Below, one piece after another: positions 32,911 through 63,945 of a stretch of 64,000 bases of DNA (positions are counted from its first letter, which is position 1; the number at the start of each line of letters is the position of its first letter). Source of the stretch: Panorpa germanica (taxonomy: Eukaryota > Arthropoda > Insecta > Mecoptera > Panorpidae); assembly GCA_963678705.1 (NCBI GenBank), contig OY783203.1, forward strand, positions 7,440,001 through 7,504,000. The letters run 5' to 3'. The position numbers and the translations under genes are program-made. The notes under the pieces were generated by a model, which had not been told where the DNA came from, searched no databases, and worked only from the letters and a program-made list of their open reading frames with translations.

Positions 32911-33107
32911 TTATAATTTATAAACCATTTTTCCATCATTTTCTTTGTTTGCAGGTGAACACTCTCCGCTTACGTTTCGAGGAACTGGACCTCCAATATT
33001 CAGACGCCTTAATTTTCGAAGAACCTTTAAGACATAGCGCACTAATTCAGGCAGCGTGCTATTTATCATCAGCGGATAATATCTGAATTCCAATTGTTCG
33101 AAGAATT
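32911..33107 (-). CDS. Gene C exon 6 (last)
   Basis: 197 nt including the stop. Acceptor ttttaag. Encodes EFFEQLE, then YYPLMINSTLPELVRYV, then a tail of about 30 residues beyond the lilli end. That tail includes PANKENDGK, which contains a KEN-box-like motif. Confidence 0.82.
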
Positions 33108-36100
33108 CTTAAAATATAAAAAGAAATATAATTAAAGTAAACTGTTTTAACAAAATTAGAACAAAAACGTTGGCTCTGAACTTTCTATAGAAGGCTGTGG
33201 TAATCTAAGCAATAATTCTATACAATTATTACATTAGGCTATTATGAATCATACAGCTGCCTAATAAGTTTATGATTATGTATGTACATAAAAAAGTTAT
33301 GATAAATAAAATTTGATTAATTATATAAAACTTTATATACTAATAACTTTTAAGTAAAAGTCGATGCATAACAAATAAGTAAATTATTTAAAAGAATGCA
33401 AATAGGAGAACACTTGTACGTACCTTTATTATTGTGCCTTTTTTTGCACATAGCGCTACTGTGGGCTTCCTGGGCATACACCAAATAGTTTAAGTCTGCA
33501 ATATGTTCGCTCTGGGTTCCATACAGCGGCGTTGGTATAAATACAGGCGGAGGATCACGTATTGGTGCAGTGTCGATTTCATTTTCTACTGCAGCAAAAA
33601 TCACTGCAGATGCACCTGGAACCGTTAGTACTGCGATGTTCTCTATTAGGAAACGAGGTGGTACCTAAAGTATTTCCATTGTATATTTATCCTACATGTC
33701 ATTTCCGTTGATATTTCTTTTAGCGGAAAAGTTCCAATTTTGATTATAAATAAAACAAAAGAACAAAGAGAAGAATAGGAAGATTATGCAGTACACAAAA
33801 TTGAATATATATATATATATTAAATTATATTATTAATTATTAATTATATTATTTAATTTTATATATAATATAATAATTATTATATTCGTCAATTTTTTGA
33901 TGTTTAATAAAATAAAAAGACTAATATGCGTTTATTAATAAATATTTCAATTTAGAATTGGACCCATAAAAAAATAATTCATAACCCAATTCGCGAATGT
34001 TTTACCCTCAAAGTAAAACCCGTTGAATCGTTTGATATATAAAATGATTAACGTGATACAAATTCCGGATTATATTTTTTAAATATTAAATTATCTAAAT
34101 ATCTGCAATCTACGCTTGCATTCTTGCTATATAGCTAAGAAATGTATGAACAGAAGAAACAAGTAGAACAGTGCGCCTGATAGGAATAGGAATAGGCAAA
34201 CCAAGTAACACCGTATAGCGTTTAGCGTATAATTGTGTTCGTGCTATTAGCCCAATCATATTAGGTTAAAAAAGGGGTCAACCTCGGAATGAAAGATAAT
34301 AAGCTGCAAATTGGTATGAACCTTTGTTTTATCATTCTAAATGTTGTCTCGAAAGTCACAATCGTTATCGTGTCCGCGTCTCAAGATATTCAAGGTCAAA
34401 GGTCACAAAAATCGGTTTTTCGCGAATATCTGGCTTCCTATCGGTTAAATGAGATTTGCATTTATTATAAAAGTTGTAGGCTATAAAATTCCCTACAACT
34501 TTTGTTTAAACTTTTTTTTCATACAACCAACCGTTTTGAAGGTAGAGCGCGAAGAGTGCACATCGTACAGTCATATACGGCCTAATGCAAGGTCAAGCGT
34601 GAGTTATAGTTATGAGTACGTTATAAAGTCAATTATTTACTTGGAAATTATAATTATTAAACAATGCCTATTATTTATGTACTAACTATTAATTATTTAT
34701 ATTTAATTAAAGTAAGTAACTTGATTATTTATATATAATTATTCATATTTAACTATTTAAGTATAAAATATTATTAATTCTGGATTATATATTTTAGTTT
34801 TATTTTAAGTTAAAATGATAGTAAGAGTATATATTTTACACATATTTTTATTTATTATTAAATACGGCATAATATACATTTGTCAAAATGTGAGTTCAAA
34901 TATCAAAAGTATCTTTGTTGATTTTAATTGTAATGAAATTGGAAATGGAAGCTAATTATCTTCTTCTTCTTCGTCGTCTTCTTCTTCTTGTCGCTCAAAA
35001 ATGTTCGATTCATTGTCATCATCCTCATTATCTGTCATGTTCATCTCCAAACCTTCCAGAATATCGGGATCATATGTATTTTCTTCATCGGGATTACTTG
35101 GATACAGTGAAGCGTTGAGGCAAGCTTGTCCGTTGCACTGGCCGCAAGCTAAAGAACATTGTAGCCCTGATTTTCTGCATCCACAGCGGGAACCACAACC
35201 ATTTTTGCAATTGCAAAATATTACGTTTAGTAGTTCGGCTGGTGCTGGAGGTAATAACGTTCGTATGGGCTCCAGCATTTCATTTTCAAGCATCCAGCCC
35301 CATTCTTGAGGTTCTAAGTCCTTCCCTAACCACGTTTGAATCTGGTAGTAGACACGTTTTATGTGTTGATGAGCTGCTACACTTGTTGGTGGAAGTGTTG
35401 ACAGTTGTACAGGTTTATTTAGTTTTGTAAATTTGATGAATTGCGTGTAGCGGAAATGATCAATGTTGTCCTCAGATTTTGGAACATTATATAATGCCAA
35501 CAAGATGCGCACTCCATTTTCTAATAATGTTTGTTTTGGGCAGTTTTCTTGTTGAAATACTTCCACCAGTTTATCTAAATTAGGAATTTTTTCCAATGCT
35601 CTAGTAACAGTTTTTTTTCCTTTTTTAAATAGCGCAGAAGTCGTGTCACAGCCACTGAATGCGTGTAAAAATAAAATGTGCTTTTTAGTACGAGGATATT
35701 GGTCAAAACTTTTAGTAGAATATATTTGTGTTTTGACATTGCCTTTGCCAACTTTTTTCAAAAAAATTTCCTGATGATGTGACTGAGTACGTCCAATTAA
35801 AATAACGAGCAAATCGATATCTTCTCCTATGATGACAGCAGTCTTTTGATGTTCTGATAAGGCAATAGCTGTGTCAATGATGAGAACATCAGCATCATCT
35901 CTGGCTGAATAAAAAATCTCGTTCATTGCTTGAGTGACTTGATCATCTTGGCGAGGCTTTTTATCTGCAGATGGTACTCGGGTTAAAAAGTTGGTATAGC
36001 AAATAGTATGATACTTTGCTTCAGCAGCGATCAAATCATACTCGTAATATATACGTTCCTTTACTAATTCTCCTAAGGAATCGTTTCGTTCTTCTGCTCT

Positions 36101-38912
36101 CTTAATTACGTTGTCTTTGAATGCAAGAGTACTTACATTACTTATTGTCCGTCTATACTTTAATTTTTTTTTCTTTTCTGCTATTTCATCAGCTTCTTGG
36201 CCACAAAATAAGTATAACTTTCCAAAATCAAAGACTTCATTTCGTTTTTTACGAGGTGCACTTGACGTTGAAGGTTCACTCTCATCTGTGCGTCGTTTTG
36301 ATGCAATAATAACATTTTTACTGGTGTACACTTTTCGACACTCGGAATGCACATTTACAGAACTTAAAGTATTTAAATAGTCTATATGTCCATCATTTCT
36401 TTCAATACTTGCAGTTTTTAAAGTTTGTAAACCACGTACGACATTCACAGAAACACCTTCTGAAAGTTTCTTATCACATATAAAACACAAATCAGCCATA
36501 GCTCTTAAAACCGTACGTCCGTAGTTGCAACGGTACAATTTCAAACTAACGAATAATCTTGACTCATACAAAGTGGAGAGAGTGGCCTTGAATACTATAG
36601 AACATCTGTCCCGGCAATGAATAGAAAAGGGCATAGGGTAGGGACAAGTATTTCCAGGTATATAAGTATTGAGAAATTTACGCGTTTTAAAGAAAAGATA
36701 TATAATGTCGTGTTAACTTAAAATAAAACTAAAATATATAATCCAGAATTAATAATATTTTATACTTAAATAGTTAAATATGAATAATTATATATAAATA
36801 ATCAAGTTACTTACTTTAATTAAATATAAATAATTAATAGTTAGTACATAAATAATAGGCATTGTTTAATAATTATAATTTCCAAGTAAATAATTGACTT
36901 TATAACGTACTCATAACTATAACTCACGCTTGACCTTGCATTAGGCCGTATATGACTGTACGATGTGCACTCTTCGCGCTCTACCTTCAAAACGGTTGGT
37001 TGTATGAAAAAAAAGTTTAAACAAAAGTTGTAGGGAATTTTATAGCCTACAACTTTTATAATAAATGCAAATCTCATTTAACCGATAGGAAGCCAGATAT
37101 TCGCGAAAAACCGATTTTTGTGACCTTTGACCTTGAATATCTTGAGACGCGGACACGATAACGATTGTGACTTTTGAGACAACATTTAGAATGACAAAAC
37201 AAAGGTTCATACCAATTTGCAGCTTATTATCTTTCATTCCGAGGTGAAAGCCCTAATATGATTGGGCTATATGCTTTACAACACAGTTGCAATAAAACTG
37301 CAAGTAAAATTGGATGTTTTGAACTTTTCCGCTTGAGACTGGATAGTAAAATATATTTTGATAAATACCGCTGGATCGTAAGACTGGTTGGGACTAAATA
37401 TTGGTCCATTATAATCTCTTCTTAACTTAGATAATGTATAGTATAGAGATGCGGAACAATGTAGGCTGCAATGAGATAATAATCATGTGTAATGTATAAG
37501 TTTTGAATTTAAGATAGTTGTGTTGCAACAAGTGGAGTAGCAGGGGAGGTGGGAGACTCAAATTATGACAAGTTGTGACGTCACATGCAATATAAAAATA
37601 TAGAAGTCCTAAAAAATAGTGTAGGAAAAATAATTATTCTGGTTTTAGTTATTTTCCTATTTGAAGGTACGATTTATGATTCTATTAATATAAAAGAAAA
37701 GCATTTTATGATTGTAGTAGCAATAAAATGGTTTACATAACATTAAATTTAGTTTTTTTGCGTAAAAAGTAACTTTTATATTCTTCTAATTCAGAAAATT
37801 TTCATAGCGACACAACTACCTTAATTTAGAAGATAATGTAAACAATCAAAACAAACTTTAGTATCTCCAGAATGCTGTTTAGACTGACTTGTTGTCTTCG
37901 GGCCAACTGATGCTCCAACATGACACCTATATAACTGAAAAAAATTAACTGTAAATGTGGTGGTTATGGTAAGGATGTCAAAAAGAACAATTTATAGAAA
38001 AAAATTGTATCATGTACTTACCATACTACTTCTAGAGTTTGCACGTATACTTGGTAAACCAAGGAGTAGTTGCAAGGATTTTTACGACTCAAGGAGTATC
38101 CGGCCATGGTAAAATTCAATACAGCCTCTATGTACTTCATCATTCGTAGAGTGAGATGCATCGTTACGTTGTCTCCCTCGTGTTTCAGATATATTCCTGC
38201 TCCGTAGTAAATCTCAGGCTCACTGGTTATGAACAGAAATACACAAAATATGATATTAGAAATTATTTAATCTTAACAGAAGCGGTAATTTATTAAATAC
38301 GTCATACGCAGAGGGGGATGGGATGGTCCACAAAGCGTGACAAGATGTGATTAGGGAACGCGGAAGGGAAGACTACTGAAACAAGACGACGCAAATCAAT
38401 TAATATATTCCAACAAGTGTTTTGGTAATTAGTATGTTGATCAATTATCTAGTTCATGTAAAAATTAAAATTACTAAATTAATGTCCAGTATATTACTAA
38501 AATCTGACTACTTAAGCAATGCAAATTGAAATTAACAACGTAACTTCTAAATTACTGGAATATATAGAACATAGGCGTGCCTATGGTTGTTTCATTTATT
38601 AATTTGTTTTTCAGTAGTAAAAAAAACATATTTTCAATTATTCTTTTTTAGTTCTCACGGAGATTTTCATGAATAAGTTACTTTTTTCACTATATCCTCT
38701 TTTCACAAATGAAAAGAAAAAAATTTAAAAATTCGATTGAAATCGAATGGAAAACTGATCCTAAAAGCAGCTCTGATAATCTAAGATACAACATTAAGTA
38801 ATAATTATATCCACCTCAGATGACGCATCTCAGCATACGGTCTATCGAAGTAAGAGAATGGTCCTTTACTTATCTTATTGGGCGGTCCATCTTGCTGGTT
38901 TGGAGGATTCAT
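32911..38912 (-). CDS. Gene C: CHD-only paralogue of lilli (AF4/FMR2 family), six exons
   Basis: Joined from exons 38912-38815, 38222-38022, 37934-37857, 37465-37369, 33664-33424 and 33107-32911: 912 nt, 303 residues, all introns GT-AG and all phases consistent. It aligns along its length with the end of lilli. Exon 1 ends in a proline-rich lead (NPPNQQDGPPNK, then FSYF) like lilli [12 protein letters not shown] and FYSYF. Exon 2 carries the core (YIEAVLNFTMAGYSL against [15 protein letters not shown]). Exons 3 and 4 continue the helices (LHCSASLYYTLSKLRR against [16 protein letters not shown]). The last exon has YYPLMINSTLPELVRYV. In AFF proteins the CHD dimerises and contacts nucleic acid (family knowledge). 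No AT-hook or serine tract is present. The ATG at 38912 is the first candidate, but the frame stays open upstream, so a further 5' exon is possible. Intron 4 carries a young transposon. About 1 kb separates it from gene B. Confidence 0.82.
33424..33664 (-). CDS. Gene C exon 5
   Basis: 241 nt, acceptor ctttag, donor AAA G|gtacgt. Contains VPGASAV (lilli SPAGSVGS) and IPTPLYGTQSEHIADLNYLV (lilli [20 protein letters not shown]). Confidence 0.8.
34248..34813. repeat. Left terminal inverted repeat of the transposon
   Basis: About 566 bp. Starts TAGCCCAATCATATTAGG and ends TTTTATTTTAAGTTAA, pairing with 36713-37269. The length difference of 9 bp comes from the block near the outer end. Confidence 0.9.
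34952..36499 (-). CDS. Transposon-encoded protein with PIN/XPG-like motif and CXC domain
   Basis: 515 codons from ATG 36499; the frame is open 45 codons further to 36634, but the cysteine motif begins right after ATG 36499. Residues 4-65 have a CFIC...HSEC zinc-binding pattern, then KR-rich sequence. The middle has DADVLIIDTAIALS and VIIGEDIDLLVILIG, the acidic signature of PIN/XPG-type nucleases, then HILFLHAFSGCDTTSALFKK. Near the end is a tesmin/TSO1-like CXC module (CNCKNGCGSRCGCRKSGLQC, then CGQCNGQAC), followed by a strongly acidic tail. Insect proteins of this type that I recall are longer, with a large segment between the zinc motif and the nuclease motif; here these are close together, so this may be an internally shortened form. 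Frame intact. Confidence 0.75.
   Translation of the reverse strand: MADLCFICDKKLSEGVSVNVVRGLQTLKTASIERNDGHIDYLNTLSSVNVHSECRKVYTSKNVIIASKRRTDESEPSTSSAPRKKRNEVFDFGKLYLFCGQEADEIAEKKKKLKYRRTISNVSTLAFKDNVIKRAEERNDSLGELVKERIYYEYDLIAAEAKYHTICYTNFLTRVPSADKKPRQDDQVTQAMNEIFYSARDDADVLIIDTAIALSEHQKTAVIIGEDIDLLVILIGRTQSHHQEIFLKKVGKGNVKTQIYSTKSFDQYPRTKKHILFLHAFSGCDTTSALFKKGKKTVTRALEKIPNLDKLVEVFQQENCPKQTLLENGVRILLALYNVPKSEDNIDHFRYTQFIKFTKLNKPVQLSTLPPTSVAAHQHIKRVYYQIQTWLGKDLEPQEWGWMLENEMLEPIRTLLPPAPAELLNVIFCNCKNGCGSRCGCRKSGLQCSLACGQCNGQACLNASLYPSNPDEENTYDPDILEGLEMNMTDNEDDDNESNIFERQEEEDDEEEEDN
36713..37269. repeat. Right terminal inverted repeat of the transposon
   Basis: About 557 bp, near-perfect complement of 34248-34813. 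Outer end CCTAATATGATTGGGCTA. Confidence 0.9.
37369..37465 (-). CDS. Gene C exon 4
   Basis: 97 nt, identical in length and phase to lilli and gene B. Acceptor ttgcag, donor GCG|gtattt. Encodes LHCSASLYYTLSKLRR. The transposon right end lies only 99 bp past the donor. Confidence 0.75.
37857..37934 (-). CDS. Gene C exon 3
   Basis: 78 nt, identical in length and phase to lilli and gene B. Acceptor tttcag; donor AA|gtttgt is weak, but the length and phase match fixes it. Encodes CYIGVMLEHQ and LNSILEILK (lilli [10 protein letters not shown] and IHDKLAILR). Confidence 0.75.
38022..38222 (-). CDS. Gene C exon 2 (CHD core)
   Basis: 201 nt, the same length as lilli exon 56614-56814. Acceptor ccag, donor TG|gtaagt. 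Encodes YLKHEGD, then MMKYIEAVLNFTMAGYSL, then YQVYVQTLEVV, the paired CHD helices. Confidence 0.85.
38815..38912 (-). CDS. Gene C exon 1
   Basis: 32 codons plus two bases, ending CTG AG|gtggat. Equivalent to the end of the big lilli exon (GAG AG|gtacct), same phase. The ATG start is tentative because the frame is open upstream. Confidence 0.7.
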
Positions 38913-39946: not shown

Positions 39947-40122
39947 TCATTGTAATATGCCAAATGGATCTTCTTCATGTTCGAACAATACCTCAAACCA
40001 ATCAGGCTCGTGCAATAAGAAAATTGCATTATTGACGTAATTTACAAATTCTAGGACCGAGCAGTTTACGTCTATAATTTTGGACAAGTCTGTCGACTTT
40101 GAATAAACTTCATCAAAGAAAT
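39947..40122 (-). CDS. Gene B exon 6 (last)
   Basis: 176 nt with TGA stop. Acceptor ttttag|ATTTCTT, nearly the same as lilli's acag|ATTTCTT. Encodes NFFDEVYSKSTDLS, VLEFVNYVNNAIFLL and an acidic-aromatic tail. Confidence 0.85.
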
Positions 40123-43100
40123 CTAAAACAAAATACAATTTTAATAACGACGATATAAAAAACATTGTTTTATGACAATTTCAAGGTTAGATTTGCACTA
40201 AGTCATATGGGAACTGTGTTTAAGGTTAGATCCGCACTGTCCTAAATCTGCAATATCTTGTAAATTTTCGTCTGATATCTAGCGCCTCAGTAAACAATTT
40301 GGATACCGTTTGAAATCATATTTAATCAAATCTATCAGTTTTTGTCATGAAAGAGTTCGCTCACAGTTCACTTTCGCACAGTAGTTCATTAAAATGTCAT
40401 TCTTAGGTTCGACGGAACAAATGATACGAACTAAATTGAAGTATAATAGTGACAAAAACTTCACAAAGCGAGACAATTCATCAAATTGTTTATTGAGCGA
40501 TAACAAATGAAAATAATTAACAAGCTAATAGCTGACACCAAAATTAATTCAAGCCACAAATAAACACTTCATCACATATTTAACGTACTCTCCATTTCTG
40601 CTGCATAAATGAGATCAAGTGAATCGTCCCATACTCTATTAGCATCTGTTAAGTAATCAGTACTTTGTGTCATTTCTTCTAAATGTTCTGGAATATCTGT
40701 TAAACCGGATACAGTTGATTCTGAATCATATCCACCAACACTACCTGCAGCATATAACTCAGAATTTTGCAGTTCTATGTCAAACGGAATATTTGACCAT
40801 GCTAAATTTAAATGTTCAAGTTTCTTCATAAGCTAAAATAATATTAACAAACAAACGTTATTTTATGTAATAAATTAACTTAACTTTGTTTTATATCATA
40901 AAAACCTCGTATTCGTGTTTCTTTTGAAATTGGGAAAGTTCTCCGACAGCATCTTTATTAGCGTTGTTAAGTTTGAAGTTCAAGACTCCTAGCGTTTGTA
41001 AGCTGAAAAATGCAAGAGAAAAGGTAACAATCTTTCTTATAATGTCATAATTTTTATAGAATATTGTTTCCCTACAAATAATTTGTCGTATCTTAGCAAT
41101 CTCGTATCAGAGAGCGGTTAGACAGTAGTTCAAAGCTTCATGTAATGTCTCACTAATGTCTAATAGGATTCTAATCACCATTCAGAGTGATACGATTCGC
41201 ATCTAATTGGATTCCGATCAAAATTGTTTGTAGGATGTACATTAATACTTCTTAGCGATGTTGCAGAGGAATCAGCAATCATTAGTGTACTTAGAAATTT
41301 TATTGTGTTCCAACTACAAACAGGTACAGTGCCAAAGTATATAACGTATGGTTCACACTTGCGTGTTTGGGATCGAATATTTCTCCCCACTTTAGACGAC
41401 CCACGACTTAGTTAACATTTTTGAATGTTAACACAGATTTCAATTCAAATTTATATGAACAGCATATAAGCATGGTAAGCGATTAATTAACGTATACGTA
41501 ACGTAAGACAAGACTGTCTTTAGACAAAAGATGAGTGACAAACTATTCTCTTGTAATTCTTAAATGAATTTTTAGAATAAGTACTAATCACCAATCACCA
41601 CAAAATGTTATGAAATGAAATAAATGATTATCATACCCTAATATATGCAGAACTTTATTTATTATTCTGTATGGTCCCTGTTTTGATAGATGATCATACA
41701 AGCCAATTACCTCTCTGTAAAATAAAAGTATTATAAAAATCAAGTGCTATTGAACACCTAAACACAGTTATGTAGTACTTAATTACTACATATATAAATG
41801 TTAAGCATATGTATATCATTAATTGTTATACCATCTCAGACACGGATGGCAACTGGATGGCCATGCCAGACCCGTCAAATTTTCACTTTTTGGTTTTTAA
41901 ATATATGTATTAAATTAGAAAAAAACTTTGTCTCGTCTATATTTGCAAATATAGACCAGTTGTTTGCAAAGAAGTATTGTTAAACTTCTCATTAATTTTT
42001 TTCCTATAATAATTACCTTTTTTATTTTTATTGTTATTAAATATCTGTTTTTTCTAGTATTTCTATTTGTTTATTTGACTAATAAAAAGATAATAGTTTT
42101 TATATATGTTAATAAAATGAAAAAATAATTTAAGATTAACACCTGTTAAAAATTATATTCAAGTAAAATATTTGGTTTTAAAAATAAAATTAAAATTTAA
42201 AGTAATATTACAAATTAATTTGTTAAATGTAAATGAAATACGTCAAACAAGAATTTATATTAATAATTTAATTAAAGATATTGTAAAAGAGTTTCGTAAA
42301 TGTGCATTAAATAATAAAACGTATCGTTTGGCAAAAAGATATTGCATTTTGTTTTTTTGTTATACATTTAATTAAATAGCAATTTATGTATCTTTTTAAA
42401 AAAATTCAAAATTTCAAAATAAAAGAAATTAAACCCTATTATAATTTTTTTTAAATTGACCTGTTAAATAAATAGATAAAATCAATTACTTACTTGAACT
42501 GAATTAGAGTTTGTATATAAATTTTTAATGCTAAGTGCATGCAATTCTGCTTATCTAAAGCATACCCTGCCATTAGAAAACACATAGCAGCTCTCAGATA
42601 CAGCGATCCTATTGCTATTTCACAGGGTTCTTCCATATTATCAGCAGTAAATTTTAGCCTTTTTCCTTCTCTTAAGTAATGAGTTGCAGGCCTATTTATA
42701 AAAGGTAAGTTTTATTTACAAGTATATCCAGTATTTTTTTTAAATTTCCATCCTGTAAACCATTTAGACTCTAAATCTACGAATTTTTATTATGAAATAG
42801 TTCCCTTTTCTCACATCCTATATTATAATGTTCCAACTGTTTGTTTATATTCTTATGATCTTATATTCTTATGTTCTTATATGTTTGGTACTGAATTTTG
42901 TATGGCAGCGCGAAAACGGCTCCCACGATCTTTTTGAAAATTTCCTATTTCGTAGAGAAAAAAATTCTAAGACTTTTGGCGTCCCCGGATTTTTCCCTGA
43001 ATTTCCTGGAAACCCGTAATTTTGGAAAAACTGGAAAAAAAGTGAGCCCTGTTTTGCTGTATTACTTTTAATTCGTAAAAGATAGAAAGTTGACATTTCT

Positions 43101-46100: not shown

Positions 46101-48876
46101 TAATTAAAATGTAATGAAGCAGTTCTTTAATTAAATTCTTAATGAACATAACTGCATCAAAAAATTTCAAGAAATCCAAAAAAAAATTTAGAAAGAAAAG
46201 TCCATGAATTTAAAAAAGGTCGCATAAAAGCCAGAACCGCGGAGATAATTAAAATGTAATGAAGCAGTTCTTTAATTAAAAACTTAATGAACATAACTGC
46301 ATCAAGAAGTTTCAAGAAATCCAAAAAAAATTTTTAGAAAAGAAAGTCCATGAATTTTAAAAAGGTCGCATAAATGCCAGAATCGCAGAGATAATTAAAA
46401 TGTAATGAAGCAGTTCTTTAATTTAAAGCCTAACGAACATAACTGCATCAAAAAATTTCAAGAAATCCAAAAAAAATTTTTAGAAAAAAAAGTCCATGAA
46501 TTTAAAAAAGGTCGCATAAAAGCCAGAATCGCGGAGATAATTAAAATGTAATGAAGCAGTTCTTTAATTAAAAACTTAATGAACATAACTGCATCAAAAA
46601 ATTTCAAAAAATCAAAAAAAAAATTTAGAAAGAAAAGTCCATGAATTTAAAAAAGGTCGCATAAAAGCCAGAACCGCGGAGATAATTAAAATGTAATGAA
46701 GCAGTTCTTAAATTAAAAACTTAATGAACATAACTGCATCAAAAAGTTTCAAGAAATCCAAAAAAAATTTTTAGAAAAGAAAGTCCATGAATTTTAAAAA
46801 GGTCGCATAAATGCCAGAATCGCAGAGATAATTAAAATGTAATGAAGCAGTTCTTTAATTTAAAGCCTAACGAACATAACTGCATCAAAAAATTTCAAGA
46901 AATCCAAAAAAAATTTTTAGAAAAAAAAGTCCATCAATTTAAAAAAGGTCGCATAAAAGCCAGAATCGCGGAGATAATTAAAATGTAATGAAGCAGTTCT
47001 TTAATTTAAAGCCTAACGAACATAACTGCATCAAAAAATTTCAAGAAATCCAAAAAAAATTTTTAGAAAAAAAAGTCCATGAATTTAAAAAAGGTCTCAT
47101 AAAAGCCAGAATCGCGGAGATAATTAAAATGTAATGAAGCAGTTCTTTAATTTAAACCCTAACGAACATAACTGCATCAAAAAATTTCAAGAAGTCCAAA
47201 AGAAATTTTTAGAAAAAAAAGTCCATGAATTTAATAAAGGTTGCATAAAAGCCAGAATCGCGGAGATAATTAAAATGTAATGAAGCAGTTCTTTAATTTA
47301 AAGCCAAACGAACATAACTGCTTAAAAAAATTTCTAGAAATCAAAAAAAAAAAAATTTAGAAAAAAAAGTCCATGAATTTAAAAAAGGTCGCATAAAAGC
47401 CAGAACCGCGGAGATAATTAAAATGTAATGAAGCAGTTCTTTAATTAAAAACTTAATGAACATAACTGCATCAAAAAATTTCAAGAAATCAAAAAAAAAA
47501 TTTAGTAAAAAAAAGTCCATGAATTTAAAAAAGGTCGCATAAAAGCCAGAATCGCGGAGATAATTAAAATGTAATGAAGCAGTTCTTTAATTTAAAGCCT
47601 AACGAACATAACTGCATCAAAAAATTTCAAGAAATCAAAAAAAAATTATAGAAAAAAAAATCCATGAATTAAAAAAGAATCGCATAAAAGTCAGAATCGC
47701 GTAGATATTGGAAATTTACTTAAACATTTTATCAATTAAAAGTGTAGCGGATATAGATCAATTAAAAAATTAAACACATTTGAAATAATAATTATTTAAA
47801 AAAGAAATACATAACTCACACTCGTTGTCTTGCGACGGGCCGAACAGCTAGTGCATATATAATGTCATTGTTTTGGGCTAAAAATGCCAAAACCACTATT
47901 GATTGAAGAGCACAAGTGAAAGAAACTTTACAAAGTGTAACATTTTATCAATTTGTTAACTGGGCGGATGAAAATTATTTGTTTTTCAAGATCCAAGAAA
48001 GGGTTATCTAAGGTGCACTAAATAGAATTTACTACATTTCAATGTAACAGTGAATTAACAACCATTTTTGATACATCAGATTTACAAATAACAATTTTTG
48101 ACTTGTAAAAACTTGTTGTACAAAAAGAACTATTCTAGTTAATTCTCGACAATCATAACCATTGGCGAAGCAAAAATAAACCAATATGTTGAAGTGATCA
48201 ACTGGAGATCGTGGATTGCTTTAAATTTGATATTATAATATTTATAGAATTGGTTTATGTAGATCTATTTCTATATATAGTTTCTGTAGACATGATTAGA
48301 ACGATTTGAAAATTATATTTTATGAAAGACTGAAATGTACAGTGTTAATACTAACTAAATGTGAGAATGCCTTTCTCTCTTTTTCTATAGAGCGATAAAT
48401 ACCAATAACATATCCAAATATTAATAATGAAGTATAATTTACCTCAATTTATCATCTCTTGGGGCTGTAAAATCTATAGAGGACCACAAGTCCATTCTTT
48501 TACCTGTGTGCGGATTTATCTCAATAGATAGTCTGTCAATCACTATGTCTTTCTTTGGCTGAAATTGTTCCTGTGCTACTTCATTAACAGCTGCGCCTGA
48601 GACAGCCATTTCCTCGAACTTAACTGATAGCTTAACTACATTAGATGGATCAACATTTTTTTCAGTAGCGTTTGATTGTGAATCTGCAGGGGCCGTTAAG
48701 TTCGATGCATTACTACCTGGTGGTTGTGTTTCTTTGGGATGAGCACTGGTTTCTTGATCAGAATTTGAAGTTTGACTTTGGGAAATTGTGTCAGAAATCG
48801 ACCCTGAAGTATCTGATGTAGATTCTCCTGGCTTAAGTGCTCCTGCAAATTCATTGTTCATTTCTGGGGCACCCAT
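39947..48876 (-). CDS. Gene B: CHD-only paralogue of lilli (AF4/FMR2 family), six exons
   Basis: Joined from exons 48876-48443, 42691-42494, 41714-41637, 41002-40906, 40832-40589 and 40122-39947: 1227 nt, 408 residues, all GT-AG, phases consistent. Residues 1-145 are a Ser/Thr/Gln-rich segment of low complexity, then VKLSVKFEE and KKDIVIDRLSIEINPHTGK; these do not resemble lilli. From exon 2 on it follows the lilli CHD: YLREGKRLKFTADN (lilli [14 protein letters not shown]), LQTLGVLNFKLNN ([13 protein letters not shown]), AAGSVGGYDSES ([13 protein letters not shown]) and NFFDEVYSKSTDLS ([14 protein letters not shown]). It adds an acidic-aromatic C-terminus (DWFEVLFEHEEDPFGIL). An in-frame TAA lies just upstream of ATG 48876, supporting that start. 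In AFF scaffolds the N-terminus binds P-TEFb, ELL and ENL/AF9 while the CHD dimerises; B has only the latter, so a partner or competitor of Lilli is plausible but unproven. Confidence 0.85.
40335..40512. repeat. Dispersed repeat family D1, copy 2
   Basis: In intron 5 of gene B. Shares TTTTGTCATGAAAGAGTTC and CAAATTGTTTATTGAGCG with 5634-5848. Confidence 0.5.
40589..40832 (-). CDS. Gene B exon 5
   Basis: 244 nt, acceptor ttttag, donor GAG A|gtacgt. If the donor were skipped the frame would stop nine codons later. Contains AAGSVGGYDSES and WDDSLDLI (lilli WEQADTLI). Confidence 0.85.
40906..41002 (-). CDS. Gene B exon 4
   Basis: 97 nt, same length and phase as lilli and gene C. Acceptor tttcag, donor GAG|gttttt. 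Encodes LQTLGVLNFKLNNANK and ELSQFQKKHEYE. Confidence 0.82.
41637..41714 (-). CDS. Gene B exon 3
   Basis: 78 nt, same length and phase as lilli and gene C. Acceptor tttacag, donor GG|gtatga. Encodes VIGLYDHLSKQGPYR and INKVLHIL. Confidence 0.8.
42494..42691 (-). CDS. Gene B exon 2 (CHD core)
   Basis: 198 nt, one codon shorter than lilli. Acceptor aaatag, donor TTC AA|gtaagt. Encodes YLREGKRLKFTADN and LYLRAAMCFLMAGYALDK, then LALKIYIQTLIQF. Confidence 0.87.
42816..43381 (+). repeat. Dispersed repeat family R, copy 2
   Basis: In intron 1 of gene B. Starts TCCTATATTATAATGTTCC after an A, as in the other copies, and extends through the GGGGGGCACGGGGGCA block. A partial repeat of its middle (GCGTCCCC, then CCCGTAATTTTG) is at 43623-43695, next to the satellite. 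Confidence 0.7.
43700..47700. repeat. 4-kb palindromic satellite in gene B intron 1
   Basis: Units of about 146 bp, each with GATGCAGTTATGTTCGTTAG and AAAGAACTGCTTCATTACAT boxes. Nine units run forward (43700-45010) and about fifteen run inverted (45545-47690). The core 45010-45545 is itself an imperfect palindrome (arms such as CTACGTAGAT and CTCCATATAGAAAGAAG, centre near 45275). Unit-to-unit similarity is high, so the array is young or homogenised. Not coding. Confidence 0.9.
47900..47990. repeat. Dispersed repeat family D1, partial copy 3
   Basis: GAAAGAAACTTTACAAAG and CAATTTGTTAACTGGGCG resemble D1 copies 1 and 2. Just right of the palindromic satellite. Confidence 0.35.
48443..48876 (-). 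CDS. Gene B exon 1
   Basis: 434 nt from ATG 48876 to TTG AG|gtaaat. Low-complexity N-terminus. Same 3' phase as lilli's big exon. An untranslated upstream exon is possible (cag acceptor-like site just upstream). Confidence 0.8.
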
Positions 48877-49494
48877 ATTACTTTAAATTTTCTACTGATA
48901 AATTGATATTAAATTACTCGTATACACAATGTTTTTAATTAGGTAATAATTTTGCTCCGAACTATTACATCGTTTCAAATGCACTAAACATCGGAAAAAG
49001 AAGTATTCATTGCAACAATGCATTTTCTGTTCGTTCATTGTTCTATAATCATTGAACTGACATACTTTATTAATAATAATATTTTACAAAGAGATTGATT
49101 GATATTTGATAATAATAATTTTATCTAAACAAATTGTTATATTTTTAAATATTCCATTTTTATACAATAATGTACAATCATTAATGATAGTAACACTAAA
49201 TTACAAACCAATGCGCTTGAATTATTCATCAAAAAATTGGGCAAATTAAATTAAAGTCAATACACCATTTCATTCTTCATTCTTCATTTCATTTCATTAA
49301 CAAAATATTTTCAAAATTATTTAAAACTTCCAAATAAAATTTCAAATTGTTCAATAAGGTTATAAATTACAACGTCTGATCAAGATGAAACCATATGTAC
49401 AGTATAAATTGTTGCATGCTGATCAGTGGTTGAAAATAAATTTTTTCTATTATTTTAAATAGCAGACATTTCTTTTTAAAATTGATAAATATGT

Positions 49495-51747: not shown

Positions 51748-51749
<2 letters not shown>

Positions 51750-51796: not shown

Positions 51797-51797
<1 letters not shown>

Positions 51798-54453: not shown

Positions 54454-54454
<1 letters not shown>

Positions 54455-54518
<64 letters not shown>

Positions 54519-54532
54519 TATATATATATATT
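54455..54532. repeat. TA dinucleotide microsatellite
   Basis: More than 30 TA units with one AA interruption; the longest simple repeat in the window. Confidence 0.9.
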
Positions 54533-55379: not shown

Positions 55380-55385
55380 TTTATT
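55380..55385 (-). terminator. lilli: Candidate poly(A) signal of lilli
   Basis: AATAAA on the minus strand 44 nt past the stop codon. It would give a very short 3' UTR; other AATAAA hexamers occur farther on, so use of this one is uncertain. Confidence 0.35.
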
Positions 55386-55428
55386 AAAAATGATATATAA
55401 ACGGAACGTTGTACTCCGATCTCCCTGT

Positions 55429-55556
55429 TTAGGTAGGCAAGCCAGCGCATAATTCTTTCAGCCCCTGAATGCCAGCACGAACATACCGCACTAGCTCCTG
55501 TAGTGAACTGTGTAATGTTAGAGGATAACATTGCTGCTCAAGAGCTACGAAGAAAT
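55429..55556 (-). CDS. lilli: lilli last exon
   Basis: 128 nt with TAA stop, acceptor tacag. Encodes [20 protein letters not shown] and [17 protein letters not shown], matching the AFF4 end (ELVRYV is NLVRYV there). Confidence 0.95.
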
Positions 55557-58500
55557 CTGTATTAAAAATATAATAACAAGTGAAGGATATATAGTTTAAA
55601 TCAATAGTTCGGCTGCGACTCATACTTAAAACAAGTTGTGGGGTATAAACTGCCGATATAACTAAAAAACTAAGTCAGTACTCACTTATTTTTCTAAAAA
55701 GTATATAGAAACGAATAAGATAAAATTCATTATCGTATTATAGATTTATACCGCTCCTATAACATCTATTCATCATTTTAACTAAAAGTCGCCGAAATAT
55801 CGTGATTTAGACTATATTTTTGTTAATGTCTTAAATAATGTAAACAATTATAAAAAGAATAAAAGTCTACCTTATATAAAATAAATAATAATCTTACTTT
55901 GGTGGTTTCCCTTTTGGATGAGAGTATCGGCCTGTTCCCAAAGATCATGACAACTCAATAAATAATTAAAATGCATATTCTGTTTTTGCATAGCGTTGTG
56001 GACGGCAATAGGTAATGCCATGCAAGGACCAGTAGGAGGCGCTGGAGGAGCCCCAGAGCTATATCCAGAGCTTTGTGATCCTACAGATCCAACAGAACCA
56101 GCAGGAGAAGGTGTTGGAGATAATGGTGATGGCGTAGAGACCTGATCATGATTGATCGGCGGGGTACTATTCGCCTAAAATAAATCATACAATTAAAAAT
56201 CTATATCCTCAACTTCTTCATGTTATATTTTTGCATATATACCTTTTGATGAAAGTCAGAGACTATTTTTAGTAATTCTTTTACTTCATATTTCCTCATT
56301 TTAAATAGCTTTAAATAAAGGAGTGACTGACAACGTAGACTATAAAATAAAAAGAACAATAAGAATGTTGTCTGAAATATTATTAGATGATAATGTAATA
56401 AAACAACTGTACCTTAATATCGCTAGTTTGTCATGTATGCTGCTTTGAGGTGTATTATTAGGTTGATTCCTAAACTTTGACGATATATATCTGTAAGTAA
56501 TTGAGCATAAATTAAAATTACACATCAATAAAGAATATATAGATGTTATACTTATCTTATGTGAACAAAAATAAATAAAATATACTGTAACTAATGTTTT
56601 GAAGACTACTTACTTTATTAAGCTGAGAGTATCTTTATACATTGTAAATGCAGCTTTTTCGGTACAACTTTCTCGTTCCATAGCGTACCCAGTCAACAAA
56701 AAGTACAACACCGCTTCTAAATATTGCATTCCTTGTGCAGTATGATCTGCTTCTCTATCTGCACCATGTTTCAGTCTTTTTGCTTCCGAAAGATATCGGT
56801 TGCTTATGCATTCCCTATAAAAAAAAATTAATAAAAAATGCATAATATAGCAAGTAACAGATTACTGTTAATTAAACAAAACTGTTCTATTTTATTATGC
56901 TAATTTTAGACAAATATATTTAAAGGTACAGAGATGTGTATAAATGCTTTTTAAAGGCATTTAAATACAAAATGCAAATACCTCGTTATTTTCCCATTTC
57001 AAATACAAAATAAAAAATAAATTTCATGTTAGTATTCAAATACAAAATACAAAATACGTATTTTAAAAATACTTTTTAGAAAATTGAATGTTCTTTATGT
57101 TACTAATATAAATGTTATTTTTTCTAATAATCATGAGAATTTACATAAAATATATATGTTATTTATTCGTGGATTTTAATACCACTTTTGTTCCAATAAT
57201 TTATCATTCATTTTTCGTCGATGAGGTCTCATTATAATTTTACCAAATGAAAAGAGATGTTCTACTGGGGCAGAATTTGACAAACAATGTTGTATTTTAA
57301 AAATATTTTCTTTATGTGTGGATAATTAATTTAAGAATATAAATTAGTATTATTGTCTTTTAAATACTGCAATGTTTCCATTTCTATGCTTGTGTTATCA
57401 TGACTGGCTGTCGAAGAGTTCAAGTCATCCACAAACATATAATAAGATTCGTTGTTTTCCTTTTTCTTATTAGTTGTATCACATACAGTTTTCATATCTT
57501 CTTGTTTTATTTTCCGTACTTCACAGACTAACAATTCTTTTACGTATCCTTGTTTGGCTTCGGCACCCATTTAAGTTTAAGAAATTGATAATGGATAACT
57601 TAAGTATAGGCAGGTAGTTTTAACAGGATTTAAAGATAATAAAATAATAGGCACATCTATCATTTTAAATTAAAATTCTAAGACAATGGACTTGTGTCCT
57701 ATGTCCTAATTTCTATAAAAGTGTACTATATATTGATAAAGTGGGTTACTAGAAACTCAAATGTTCAAATATTTTTTAATAACTCCATATATTTCAGGAG
57801 ATATTAACAATTAAAAGTCCTTTTTTCCCTTTAATTATTAAGGGGATTCAACGTTGTACACATTCCAAATGCATGTGACATCAACCGCTGCCAACCTTAC
57901 AGCTCATAAATCTCTGCTATATGTATTTATGTATCAAAATATCAAATATTATTTACAGCTATTTCAAGGAATAAAATTCCAATATTATGTATGTTTAAGC
58001 AGGGTTATATAAAATAAAAACTTATTCTTTGACTTGACTTGATTATTATGACTACCAACAGCTACAAAACATTACCACAGTACTGATCTACTCAACAAAT
58101 AACTGACTTAAAATGCATTTCTCACCATACAAATATGGCCGACCATTTCTAGCACTAAAACTACAATTAAAATTTTTAATTGCTATATCTCCGTCAACAT
58201 TTAGATATTTAATAAAATAGACACACTAATACACATTCATTAACATCAATTTCAATCAACAATTGAAAAATCGATCACTACAAAATGAGAACACAAGCTC
58301 ATTGCACAACTGGACAATTGCAGATACTTTTAGATCATAGATGCTGCTAATGTTAGTGGGGTTTTAAGTTTATATTCAAAAAATAATGTTTACTGATTAA
58401 CACTATGAAGTAACAAAAATGAAAAAAGTATTTTCTATTTCCCAAATAGGAAATAGTTTGTCAAAGTTTTCAAATAAAATATAAGTACAAATTTTTTTTT

Positions 58501-61500
58501 GGTTTTTTAATCCTATATTATAATGTTCCAACTGTATGTTTATATTCTGCTAAGAAAAAAGATTCTAAGACTTTTGGCGTCCCTGAATTTCCTGGAAACC
58601 CGTTATTTTGGAAAAACTGGAAAAAAAAAGTTGTGCTCTTTTTTGCTGTATAACTTTTTATTCGTAAAAGATAGACAGTTGAAATTTTGCATGTGTATTA
58701 AGGTATTCAATGCTGACATTTTTCAAAATTTAGAAGTTCCAAATTTTGTAAAAGAAACATTGGAGAAAGCTCAAATTTTGGATTGTGTAATATTTGAATA
58801 TCATATTAAAAAAAAAGAACTGAAAACATTGAGTGTCATTATATTTTTTTATTTATATGTGAAATTTATATATATATATTTATATATATATTTATATATA
58901 TATTAATATATATCTTAAATGATATATAAATACAAAATAGGAATTTTCTATTTTGTATTTGCATTTTGCGTATATCTATATGAAAAACGCATATCTTTGT
59001 AAAGGTACCTCTCGTCCTCTCCAGGAAGTTCTTCATTGTGTCTTACGAAGTAAGAGTAGAAGATTTTACTATTAGATGCTGGCGGTTGCCATGGTGCGGG
59101 CGGTTCCATCAACGGTACGGAATCCCGCTCATGGTTCGTAGGTATCATATCACTTTGATCATTGGTTGCTGAATGTGAAGACTGATGAGATGAAGTATTC
59201 GCATCCGCAGTTTTCCTTTTTTTATCTCTATGATGATCTTTATCTTTGTTAGTAGAAGATTTATCGCGTCTACTCGAATTGGAACTGCTTGATGATTTCT
59301 CTTTTCCACGATCTGTACTTCCGCCAGCTGCAGACACTGAACTACTACTTGCACTTATTGTCCGCTTCCGCTTGTGTCCACTGGATCTGTTCTTGTCTTT
59401 GTCGTGACCACTATTTGAACTATGTTCACTATAATCCTTATCACTTTTATTCACATCACTATGTCTGGACGATGAGGATTTTTTGGACTTATAATCGTGT
59501 GAATTAGACCCATGGCTAGATATGTGACTCCTTGACGTCCGTTCACTATTTTCTATAGAATCACATTTGCTTTCACGAATTTCACCATCTTCTAAATCTG
59601 GTGGTGGCATTAATTCTTTTTTCATATTAACTTCTCGTTTGCTAGACCTTGTATCTGAAAGATCAGATCGTTTCCGCAACTCTTCACTTTTCCTTTTATT
59701 TTGAATAGGGACGGCTGAGGGAAGGGAGGGTATGTTAGTAAGACGGCTTAAATCAATATGGCACATCAGCGACGGCTTTCCATCAGGTTTATAAATACCC
59801 TGAGGTTTTTCACATTTAGGTTTTACATCTGGTGCAGGTACATTTTCCTTATCTTTTTTGTTATTGTCTTTAATTGTACTTTCTGGTTTACAGTACTTAT
59901 TGTCAGTTATGTCAGATTCTATTCTGCTTTCGTTCTTCAAAGGTAGACTCTCACAATTTTGCAAAGGAGAGAGCAAAATATGCCCTGTTGACATATCAGG
60001 AATTGCAGTTTCTTCCGTAAAGTTCCTATCTCCTTCACATTCAACTATAAGTACTTGCCCTTTACCCTTTCCACCCTTTCCTCCACCTTTACCACCTTTG
60101 CCTCCTTTTCCGGCACCCTCTGTGTCTCTAGGACGCATAGAAAAGAGTTTACGTAACGTATCACTTTTCTTCTTATCTTGAATAGCGTTTTCTTCAATGA
60201 CTTTTACTGGTCTTTCGACCTTACCATTTTTCGCATTTTCTGCTTTACTCTTATCGTTGTCACTTACACTATCACTATCCGATGATTTTGGGTTAAAATT
60301 TTTGTCAGATGACTCGCTCTTACGTCTTTTACTTGGAGTACTAATTGGTTTGACAGGCAATACTTTGGCAGGAACTCTGGTTTCACGTATCTCTCTGGGT
60401 GGAGGATTGGGTTTCGTAGCAGTAACTGTTGTTACATCTTGTTCATCTGAAGATGAATCTTCTGAAGTAGGAATCGTTGCCACACTCTTAATTGAACTGC
60501 GGCGCCTCTTTCTAGCAACCTCTGAACGTTTTCGAGGAGAATCAGAGTTCCGACATCTGCTACTGCTCCTTTTTGAATTATTCCCCGTGTTCGTGCTTCT
60601 AACATCTTTTCGTTTAGCGCCCTTAGATGTTTCATTATCAGATCCTCGCCTTGTACGCTCAGTTCTTACAGGTGATTTGGTGATGTGCGTTGGACGCGCT
60701 ATAAGTTTGACAACTTCATTTTCGGACTCGCTATTTCTACGGATTGTTGTACTAGGATGTCTAATATTCCTAGAAGGTCTCTCCGGTGCGCGACTTTTAG
60801 ATCTTTCTCTATCACTTCCACTAAATGCAACATCAAAACCATTCTTCTTCGGCGATTTTCTCGCACGTAGTTTATCCTCCGTACTACTACTTGGAGACCG
60901 TATCTTGCTTGATTTAAGCGGACGGCCCCGCTTTTTCTTACCCTCATTTTCCGAACCACTGTGTGGCTGAGGCTTATTGGGTGGTCGCCCACGCTTTTTA
61001 ACTCCACTTTGCTTTTCGCCATCTGATCCATCCACTTTCACTTTACGTGGTCGACCAGGTCTTCCTTTAGGTTTCTTCTTCTCAGATTCCGTATTAATTC
61101 CATTAACGGTTACATGAATTTTATCTACGGTGGACCGATCTTCTTCTGAACCACTCGCAGAACTCAAAGATTTCGTTCGAGGGGTGGAACGAATAGATCG
61201 CTTGGTGATCGGAATGGTTGGTTGCTCATCATCGCTAGTGTCACTGGTGAGCACGCGATTCACGGAAATTGGCTGCTTCCGCTTCTTACGAGTAACAGGC
61301 TTTTTACGGGCTCCGTCATCACTATCCGATAAACTAGATACCAGACTCTCAGGTTTTATATTTTTTGCTTCTGCCAAAACACTTTCCAACTCCTTGTTTG
61401 AGTCATAACAATCAGATTCATCATTTCTAGTAATTTTGGAACACTTTTCAGGTTCTATAGGACTAATTGGAGGAACTGTAGAAACGACTGGAGTAATATC

Positions 61501-63945
61501 GTTTCTTGGAGGTAATACCATTGGAATCGGATTTGTAGCTTGAACATTGTTAAAGAATGTCCCCAAATTCCAGCGCTTTGTTTCCTGTTCCGGCTGTACA
61601 GGAGATAGTATATTCATCTGTGGTGATGTAATAGGCCCTGGAAGAAACATATCTAAACTGGGATTATAGTATACAAGTTCTATAAATCACATTTATAACA
61701 TAACCAGTAACTCTTCTAATACCGTACCTCCAGGTGGTGCCGAGGAAGGTGTCTCATCTGTTGAATCACTGCTAGAACTGTCACTATCACTTCCAGAACT
61801 ATCGCTATCGCTGCTACTAGATACTGATGGTGATCTGCTCTTGCTGATGGTTGGAAACAACGGATGCACTGGAGATAAGGATCTAATAAGAGGCTCAACA
61901 GTACGCTCATTGCATAAGTTGCTTGGAGGTGTTGCTGTTAGAGGTGCCATTAATCTAAAAATAATTACGGTGATATTATTATTGATTACTTTTGTGAGTT
62001 GGTAATGGATTTTGACGAGTGAAAAGGTGCATCTACCAAAATGTTAATTTATCTAATGAGATACATGTTATACAAATTATTACTTACGGTTCAATTGACT
62101 GGTGTAGAGTTGGGCTTAACGTCGGAATAGTATCATCGTCATCACTGTCTGACAGACTTAAGTCATGCTCTAACTCCCTACAAAAACAAAATTATCATTA
62201 TACACCTAATATAACAAGAATATTTATAAATAGAGCAAGATATAATAGGGCTATAGATTTTATGTAAGCGAATTTAAAAGTGTGTTTCGTATTACACTCT
62301 TAAATTCACTTATTTTTTCGCGATAAAAAATAATTTTTATTAAAAATGTATTTGTACATTAGCAATAATAAATAATAATCCATAGAAAATTCGCAAGTAT
62401 AACATTTATGTTGACTGCTAATTCTGCTTAATTTAATAAAGGTTTGCTTATAGATTTCTAAATGGGGCAAATTTTCATTTGAAGGAAATTGTATAGGATT
62501 GACTGCATAGTATTGTACTGTCATGTTATTTTGCAATGAAGATTTTATTTCAGTAAATATTTTGATATCGCTGAAATTTGATTTTTTGAAAACTTTAGAA
62601 ACTACAATGACGATTTTTACGATATTTAACCTGATAAACAAAAACTATTATGCTAAATAACTGTGTATAATAGAGACAGATTATAGTTTTGCTTTAATAA
62701 TCTAATAGGATTTTTTTTGTTGTGTAATGCATATAATGTATTTGTCTTTTATTGTTAAGTTTATAAAGAATCAATCTACTTGAAACTGTCACACTGTTGC
62801 CGAAGTAATATTATATGGGTTATGCTTGAACAAGTCAGAAAACCAGTCACTAGAAGACAGACGACATGAAACAAAAAATTATAATTACGACGTAGTGTAC
62901 ATCAACATCGTTCGCAATGATCGTCTTCATTCTATCAATAGCGTACGACGACTGATTTCATACACACACACACACATAAATAGTACTAACAGTAATCAAA
63001 GTTGACACACTACCAGAAATGGAAACAACAAACAACATCACATACTTGGCAAACTATTACATTTTTAATTCATGTTTTAAATGAAGTTAATAGTATCAAG
63101 CAAATATTAAATTAATTGTTATTAATATATGTTGCATAAACATTGCATTTCATATTATTCTATTTATAAGATTATAATTTTATTTTAGGTACCAGCTAAA
63201 TTATTAAGTCATTAGTTTTAATTATTTTTTCGAAAGAAATGCATTTAATAAAATATAAAAGAATAATTTATTTAAATATCATAAGATATATAAAACCCTA
63301 TTCAAGCTACAACTAGACTGATTTCCATTGATAAATGTATTATCAACAAATTTTTGCAACAAAATTAATTCTTGTTTTAGATTTATTTGTTCAGTGAAGT
63401 TAAACTATAATTTAAAGTTGTGCATGGTTTTAGTACAACCGTTGCATCAACAAACTGAGCGTAAACCGCAAATTGGACAGACTGTTAGTTTTGAATCTGC
63501 TTCTTCAATATTTTTAGATAGTGTTGTCTCCTGTATATAACCAGTGTAACATTTATTAAAATATTTCATAAGAAAAGACAACCCAATTGCAATAACAAAA
63601 AATAAGATTTCAAGTAAAAATGTTGTGTATTCTCAGCCCATACAAGCAATAACTAATGTACAACAAAACGTATAACAAACGTTTCTCAGAATATGTACAT
63701 CACTTTTCGAATGCAATAGGGAAAGTTTGAGCCCCTTGACACCTCTCCCCCACTTCTCAACTCTTTATAAACGACCTTGGCTGTTGTCCATGAGTTTCAT
63801 ACTGTATGCTACCAACTCGTTTAACAGATGTAAAACAGAAAGAAGATGAGTATAACCAAAATTCAAAGAGACAGCAATACTTACAAAGACATTATCGCTG
63901 GAGCAGGTGGCGGTAGAATCGGTGCCAACGCAGCTGACGGACGAA
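55429..63945 (-). CDS. lilli: lilliputian: AF4/FMR2 family scaffold (5' exons outside window)
   Basis: Nine exons joined in phase: 63945-63885, 62177-62088, 61954-61728, 61652-59009, 56814-56614, 56490-56413, 56339-56243, 56174-55898, 55556-55429; about 1266 residues, first exon(s) missing. AF4/FMR2 proteins are nuclear scaffolds of the super elongation complex with P-TEFb, ELL and ENL/AF9 (family knowledge). Visible in order: proline-rich lead and [16 protein letters not shown] acidic motif; Ser/Asp tract ([20 protein letters not shown]), the usual transactivation segment; [10 protein letters not shown], matching the conserved WxLxxFxNK-type motif; three AT-hooks ([25 protein letters not shown]) at about 60916-61068, as known for fly Lilli; a Lys/Gly run (60062-60118); long basic/serine region; PAPWQPP; and the C-terminal homology domain ([63 protein letters not shown]). 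The domain organisation is complete from the acidic segment on. Genes B and C downstream are its CHD relatives. Confidence 0.95.
55590..55815. mobile_element. MITE family M1, copy 4, in the last lilli intron
   Basis: TATAGTTTAAATC...GTTCGGCTGCGACTCATAC at the left, GACTATA at the right, with the internal CTGCCGATATAACTAAAAA block. It fills about 226 of the 341 intron bases. Confidence 0.7.
55898..56174 (-). CDS. lilli: lilli exon, SPAGSVGS and last helices
   Basis: 277 nt, acceptor attttag, donor CAA A|gtaaga. [20 protein letters not shown] is the family signature; then [20 protein letters not shown]. Confidence 0.95.
56243..56339 (-). CDS. lilli: lilli exon, CHD
   Basis: 97 nt, acceptor tttatag, donor AAG|gtatat. 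Encodes [20 protein letters not shown]. Confidence 0.92.
56413..56490 (-). CDS. lilli: lilli exon, CHD
   Basis: 78 nt, acceptor ttacag, donor AG|gtacag. Encodes [20 protein letters not shown] and KLAILR. Confidence 0.9.
56614..56814 (-). CDS. lilli: lilli exon, CHD core
   Basis: 201 nt, acceptor tttatag, donor ATA AA|gtaagt. Encodes [16 protein letters not shown] and [20 protein letters not shown]. Confidence 0.95.
56936..57600 (-). mobile_element. hAT transposase remnant in a lilli intron
   Basis: Minus-strand frames at 57331-57570 and 57160-57320. The latter encodes [20 protein letters not shown] and [11 protein letters not shown], the conserved C-terminal dimerisation region of hAT transposases; a stop and a frame change separate it from the upstream 79-codon frame. 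The left end is CAGAGATGTG at 56936, followed by repeated AAATACAAAATAC motifs. The right end was not found. Inactive. Confidence 0.75.
58511..58800 (+). repeat. Dispersed repeat family R, copy 3 (shortened)
   Basis: In the same lilli intron. Begins TCCTATATTATAATGTTCC after an A, contains GATTCTAAGACTTTTGGCGT, and decays after about 58800. Confidence 0.65.
59009..61652 (-). CDS. lilli: lilli large exon, AT-hooks and basic region
   Basis: 2644 nt, 880 codons. Acceptor tttag, donor GAG AG|gtacct. The open frame continues past this donor to 58948, but the splice is required to reach the CHD and matches genes B and C. Contains the three AT-hooks, the Lys/Gly run and PAPWQPP. Confidence 0.95.
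61728..61954 (-). CDS. lilli: lilli exon, serine/aspartate tract
   Basis: 227 nt, acceptor tttttag, donor GGA G|gtacgg. The pSer-type segment [20 protein letters not shown]. The next intron is only 75 bp. Confidence 0.92.
62088..62177 (-). CDS. lilli: lilli exon, acidic motif
   Basis: 90 nt, acceptor ttgtag, donor gtaagt. Encodes [15 protein letters not shown], the LxDxLxLSDSxD-type motif typical of AF4/FMR2 proteins. Confidence 0.9.
62178..63884. other. lilli: lilli intron
   Basis: AT-rich, with a CA run at 62963-62975. No repeat or nested gene recognised. Confidence 0.6.
63885..63945 (-). CDS. lilli: lilli exon, leftmost 5' exon visible
   Basis: 61 nt, acceptor ttttcag, donor TCT TT|gtaagt. 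Encodes [20 protein letters not shown], a proline-rich lead into the acidic motif. Confidence 0.85.

Follow-up and report, generated by a model that had tools for sequence, protein, structure and literature searches.

Likely tandem paralogues of the lilli 3' end, and a possible scaffold-less partner of Lilli, in Panorpa germanica

The lilli gene encodes a large scaffold protein on which the machinery for sustained gene transcription assembles. We analysed a stretch of 64,000 nucleotides from the genome of Panorpa germanica (assembly GCA_963678705.1, contig OY783203.1, positions 7,440,001 to 7,504,000; hereafter the window), whose minus strand carries lilli (so named by homology), then a predicted gene B and then a predicted gene C. 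Both predicted genes code for a C-terminal homology domain (CHD), the domain by which AF4/FMR2 proteins, known as long scaffolds, are paired. B and C preferentially retain residues that are conserved among Lilli homologues, a sign of selective constraint. We propose that the two genes are CHD-bearing paralogues of the lilli 3' end and that B encodes a predicted scaffold-less CHD partner of Lilli; to this reading as a whole we assign a probability of somewhat under two in five.

CHD homology and gene models

All three genes matched the Pfam family AFF4_CHD (PF18876), with E-values of 4.9e-55 for lilli, 5.9e-14 for B and 8e-16 for C and bit scores (187.3, 52.6 and 58.7, respectively) that exceed the curated cut-off of 24 bits. 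The sole matches in the PDB were three AFF4 CHD sequences (at E up to 0.001 in one search and up to 1 in the others), and together with the Pfam E-values this places the homology far beyond chance. Of the 264 positions of the CHD profile, B covers 13-257 and C is matched in two stretches, the best being 28-123. Over the aligned regions, lilli is 26.0% identical to B, 29.2% to C and 34.7% to AFF4, and B and C share 21.1% with each other; identity to human AFF4 is 24.0% for B and 25.8% for C.

The part of the Lilli scaffold that precedes the CHD ends in a large exon at 59009..61637 (minus strand, as for all gene features below), lying in an open frame at 58948-61686 and bounded by a putative acceptor at 61637 that was read by eye. 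Its phase-2 donor at 59009, after the residues EELPGEDE, joins in frame to five CHD exons of 201/78/97/277/128 nt (56814-56614, 56490-56413, 56339-56243, 56174-55898 and 55556-55429), the last of which contains the stop codon. An AATAAA hexamer is found about 43 nt past this stop, and 6.5 kb separate the stop from the ATG of B.

Gene B (48876-39947) is predicted to code for 408 amino acids in six exons of 434/198/78/97/244/176 nt. Exon 1 (48443..48876) contributes the ATG, which an in-frame stop precedes by 9 nt, and 145 residues; it was placed by phase and position rather than by homology. The CHD begins in exon 2 (42494..42691, 198 nt), which lies inside the Pfam match, and continues through exon 3 (41637..41714, 78 nt) into exon 4 (40906..41002, 97 nt), which encodes a proline-free alpha4-alpha5 arm. 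The loop and alpha6 are encoded by exon 5 (40589..40832, 244 nt), and the C-terminal part and the stop by exon 6 (39947..40122, 176 nt).

Gene C (38912-32911) is predicted to code for 303 amino acids, again in six exons (98/201/78/97/241/197 nt). Its exon 1 (38815..38912, 98 nt) holds the ATG and 32 residues, and the CHD begins in exon 2 (38022..38222, 201 nt), inside the Pfam match of C. Exon 3 (37857..37934, 78 nt) is followed by exon 4 (37369..37465, 97 nt), which encodes alpha4 and then the start of a proline-rich sequence that extends into exon 5 and stands where the alpha5 handle helix would be expected. Exon 5 (33424..33664, 241 nt) encodes the loop and alpha6, and exon 6 (32911..33107, 197 nt) the C-terminal part and the stop.

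Intron phases are 2,2,2,0,1 in both B and C, and are identical in lilli when counted from the large-exon donor at 59009. The rebuilt models thus agree with a reading made earlier from the sequence only, which had matched the B and C exons to the lilli CHD exons (198/201, 78 and 97 nt) with five shared phases. They also bear out its open frames and GT-AG junctions through six exons: every internal join of the three genes is GT-AG, and the 408 codons of B and the 303 of C contain no stop other than the terminal one. The weak points of the models are three poor donors (GTTTTT after B exon 4, GTTTGT after C exon 3 and GTGGAT after C exon 1) and two acceptors with a low pyrimidine content (55% at B exon 2 and 45% at C exon 5).

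Intron 4 of C (3704 nt) harbors a transposon-like element at 34281-37245 with inverted ends of 543 bp that are 99% alike. The element contains an open frame of 586 amino acids (34952-36712, minus strand), of which the 515-residue part from 36499 on gave no Pfam match. The element probably inserted recently, and the C exons were not damaged by it. In intron 1 of B, a 146-bp repeat forms two extensive arrays (43764-45035 and 45515-47707), whose consensus units and translations suggest opposite orientations, and a tandem array with an 87-bp unit occupies 49471-50715, between lilli and B.

Among the 32 residues of C exon 1, a stretch with the residues SYF can be matched to the last part of the large exon of lilli. 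These three residues are widely conserved (S in 114, Y in 116 and F in 109 of 120 listed homologues, a set drawn from the 317 proteins matched by lilli and including some isoforms from the same species), and C keeps all of them; the duplicated unit therefore probably took in the tail of the lilli large exon. For B exon 1, by comparison with the lilli large exon, by protein search and in Pfam, no relatives were found. Its 145-residue product consists to 40% of Ser, Thr, Asn, Gln and Pro. C is strictly CHD-only, as the sequence-only reading had described both genes, and B is a CHD plus an N-terminal tail of its own.

The B and C models, at 408 and 303 amino acids, lack the scaffold regions of Lilli, which is a long protein (658-1981 amino acids among the listed homologues, in a search restricted by protein size) whose N-terminus lies outside the window here; motifs that bind P-TEFb or ELL were not searched for. 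With E-values up to 1 allowed, the N-terminal and central AF-4 region (PF05110) matched neither B nor C. This test is weak alone, as the window lilli large exon is also unmatched and many listed homologues carry only PF18876. The AF9/ENL AHD-binding motif, in the form LxVxIxLxxV/L given in PMC8022399, was unmatched in the lilli large exon, B and C when applied strictly. A relaxed pattern matched once in the lilli large exon, over 10 residues (residue 640 of the open frame, 59740-59769), and nowhere in B or C; searching the motif peptide against the PDB gave only chance matches to leucine-rich bacterial proteins.

No fourth CHD copy is visible in the window to a profile that combines lilli, B and C with human AFF4: among 2786 stop-to-stop pieces of at least 15 amino acids in six frames, 17 scored E up to 1, and every one overlapped exons of lilli, B or C. 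Beyond the window, protein searches with B (2726 candidates) and with a C/B/lilli alignment (5227 candidates) gave no match at E up to 0.001; the method depends on 5-residue words in common and may overlook relatives as diverged as B and C. A length-matched control with lilli matched 317 proteins, indicating that the database covers insects. Literature searches, which cover few subscription journals, showed no CHD-only AF4/FMR2 member among the papers listed. Both approaches are of limited sensitivity; to the sequence-only reading, too, no described CHD-only member was known.

Selective constraint and age of the duplication

We simulated neutral drift by mutating the CHD of lilli, with the present-day gene as ancestor, to 30% identity. 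Drifted sequences gained at least 5 stop codons, with a mean of 13.2, in one set of 300 runs, and at least 4, with a mean of 13.1, in an earlier set of the same size. The best score to human AFF4 reached at this identity was 81, as compared to 119 for B and 117 for C. The BLOSUM values of changed sites gave a weak test, with 3.7% of the 30%-identity runs reaching the value of B.

Retention of individual sites was examined in columns where the window lilli has the consensus of the 120 homologues, with highly conserved columns defined as those at 90% or more. B retains 37 of 80 highly conserved columns versus 19 of 80 other columns (one-sided p = 0.002), and C retains 37 of 83 versus 20 of 78 (p = 0.009). 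The view that B and C are recent pseudogenes was rejected as the main explanation, since neutral drift leaves several stops and B and C have none; the sequence-only reading had also argued against it.

The two genes have nevertheless diverged rapidly. Their terminal branches in a 27-taxon tree measure 2.8 (B) and 2.1 (C) substitutions per site against 0.20 for the window lilli, and are thus 10-14 times longer. B and C group together with a support of 95 in a 113-taxon tree and 92 in the 27-taxon tree, a grouping that long branches could have produced; in the larger tree the pair falls outside all other homologues, beside human AFF4, a position where long branches may attract. The window lilli itself clusters with that of the cat flea Ctenocephalides felis (support 73 and 79). 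Among the matches listed, a flea AF4/FMR2 protein is 65% identical to it; in raw identity the dragonfly Ladona fulva (70.2%, a partial protein) and the lacewing Chrysoperla carnea (68.5%) come slightly before the flea (67.2%).

With 27 taxa, a tree constrained to unite B, C, the window lilli and the flea has the best likelihood, above the result of the unconstrained search. A topology test rejected none of five 27-taxon trees (approximately unbiased test, 0.39-0.61), and a four-taxon test of duplication age separated no alternative. Since no tree is rejected, the trees are compatible with both an ancient and a lineage-specific origin. That the genes lie in tandem speaks for a local duplication, and B and C are likely to be local, tandem paralogues of the lilli 3' end, with the neighbouring lilli, a member of the same Pfam CHD family as Drosophila Lilli and other insect homologues, as their probable parent.

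Pairing with Lilli and rival explanations

The CHD of human AFF1 and AFF4 (also termed THD; AFF4 structures 6k7p, 6kn5 and 6r80 in the PDB) can be aligned with both B and C. The AFF4 dimer is described as relying on a handle, made of alpha5 and the N-terminal part of alpha6, and on two hydrophobic cores at F1014 and Y1096 (PMC7026398). According to the same report, F1014A impairs the AFF4 dimer and Y1096H disrupts it, the single mutant F1063A that matches F1014A leaves the AFF1 dimer intact, and dimer-breaking AFF4 mutants lose transactivation while retaining the binding of subunits of the super elongation complex (SEC).

At the Core-1 position of F1014, the 120 listed homologues have Tyr (68), Phe (51) or His (1). 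At the position of Y1096, Gln is found in 103 of the 120, His in 5 and Tyr in 1, with Met in B; since the Lilli homologues depart from the human protein here, this position is not diagnostic in the set, and the residues of the human interface can be relied on only in part. At the position of F1103, B and C have Leu, as do 116 of the 120. In the columns of the alpha4-alpha5 arm, which we compared as sequence, lilli and B have 33 residues each and C has 18, with a range of 29-43 in the listed homologues.

The arm of B thus has the length of that of lilli and is proline-free, and as B, judged by sequence, keeps a handle helix of this length it is the likelier partner: B may still dock on Lilli. 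C, with its proline-rich handle region and its lost Core-1 aromatic, is probably unable to dock canonically. Arms with one or two prolines are fairly common, occurring in 51 of the 120 listed homologues, and a large alignment shifts the prolines of C out of the arm columns into the loop.

If B and C are transcribed and spliced as modelled, the handle region of B (alpha5/alpha6) would dock on the Lilli CHD despite the loss of the Core-1 aromatic, giving Lilli:B pairs with one arm that carries an elongation complex instead of two. B could in this way titrate or re-aim Lilli, and its Ser/Thr-rich tail might supply an extra contact of its own. C, its handle likely lost, would act as a monomeric CHD fold with another partner. 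Damping, re-targeting and no effect on Lilli would look alike in sequence, and the role of B as a partner is proposed by analogy. The analogy is with human constructs: the isolated AFF1 CHD is reported to associate with AFF4 at a level similar to the full protein, and with other SEC parts far less, and the isolated AFF4 CHD to behave nearly identically (Lu 2015, PMC4499153). These are likewise CHDs without a scaffold, although artificial truncations and not genes. In the same report, tagged AFF1 and AFF4 formed heterodimers in cells and did not form homodimers.

Several observations weigh against pairing, or against treating the genes as functional. The Core-1 aromatic of human AFF4 is replaced in both genes, by Asn in B and by Ser in C (within exon 4 of each), at the very position where F1014A impairs AFF4 dimers. 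At the Y1096 position C has His, the change that broke the AFF4 dimer, even if five listed homologues share it. The stretch after alpha4 in C holds five prolines in 43 residues (a cut drawn by eye), and the corresponding stretches of human AFF4, lilli and B hold none. Moreover, the AFF1-AFF4 heterodimer is reported to be dispensable for SEC assembly and to lie mostly outside the SEC (PMC4499153), for which reason the importance of CHD pairing may have been overestimated. As for constraint, the best of 300 runs drifted to 35% identity scored 118 to AFF4, exceeding the 117 of C, so that this test is valid only near the identity actually seen; the runs also start from today's lilli, and the drifted CHD falls slightly short of the scored B and C in length. 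For B, the codon signal is clear only in exon 1 (144 codons, 68.8 bits), mild in exon 5 and slightly negative in three of the five CHD exons; it is not decisive for C, whose true frame scores 65.9 bits, below the 68.7 of the +2 frame.

These points bear on what else B and C might be. Both genes could be neofunctionalised, keeping the CHD fold without binding Lilli, with the TPR-like body serving a new, perhaps tissue-restricted, protein or nucleic-acid partner. The absence of the Core-1 aromatic from both genes, the apparent loss of the C handle and the long branches on which conserved sites are still preferentially kept all fit this explanation, as does the preference of the AFF4 CHD for RNA over DNA cited in PMC7026398; set against the departure of most homologues from the human residue at Y1096 and the lilli-length handle of B, we consider it rather unlikely. 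That both proteins are CHD-only competitors dimerising with Lilli, as the sequence-only reading had it, draws on the isolated human CHD and on the homology common to B and C. With the prolines of C and the Core-1 losses in both genes we find this improbable: competition or adaptation by pairing is plausible for B and weak for C, and pairing without recruitment of P-TEFb or ELL agrees with the lack of an SEC-recruiting scaffold in both models and is called into question by the same missing aromatic.

Two further explanations concern the genes themselves. B, C or both might be unexpressed or decaying copies, as the weak donors and acceptors, the weak codon signal of several CHD exons and, in intron 4 of C, the transposon-like element whose ends are nearly identical would suggest. 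This, too, appears improbable given 711 codons without a stop or frameshift at 26-29% identity to lilli, when every CHD run drifted to 30% gained at least 4 stops, and given the selective retention of conserved sites. Alternatively, the B and C cassettes could be alternative 3' ends of a single lilli transcription unit, yielding Lilli isoforms with different dimer domains: the lilli large exon joins either CHD cassette in frame and stop-free to the end, and all cassettes are entered in phase 2. Duplication alone would also yield matching phases, however, and lilli has a stop and AATAAA of its own, B and C have phase-matched ATG exons of their own, and 6.5 kb lie before the ATG of B, so that we regard this explanation as very unlikely.

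The proposal of B as a Lilli partner gains interest from the fly, where Lilli is given as the only AF4/FMR2 homologue (PMC6884579); if Panorpa germanica resembles the fly, B and C would be the only hetero-partners open to Lilli. The lilli locus might then hold the first CHD-only branch of AF4/FMR2, two tandem genes in which the dimer domain of a scaffold came to regulate the scaffold it derives from and evolves fast. An insect with a single Lilli would thereby have a hetero-pairing akin to that of AFF1 and AFF4 in vertebrates. We hold this broader proposal to be doubtful. The studies of CHD pairing cited above worked with truncated or point-mutated human proteins; natural CHD-only genes, if true, would split pairing from recruitment in vivo and allow the role of CHD pairing in elongation control to be asked. 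Loss of an aromatic kept by nearly all the homologues sampled, in genes that preferentially hold on to conserved sites, would also be a natural experiment on the importance of the different CHD surfaces.

Other elements in the window

Two dispersed repeat-like pieces, at about 42801-43071 and 58450-58653, have similar plus-strand translations (SKTFGVP, then FPGNP). An open frame at 27045-27500 (minus strand) has a sub-threshold Pfam match to the leucine-rich-repeat N-terminal domain LRRNT (20.1 bits against a cut-off of 25.8). Finally, a diverged, single-frame NOP56/58-like open frame at 1008-2438 (minus strand) has Pfam matches to NOP5NT (5.9e-9) and to the Nop domain in its first half (2e-19), followed by a lysine-rich tail; it looks like an altered retrocopy.

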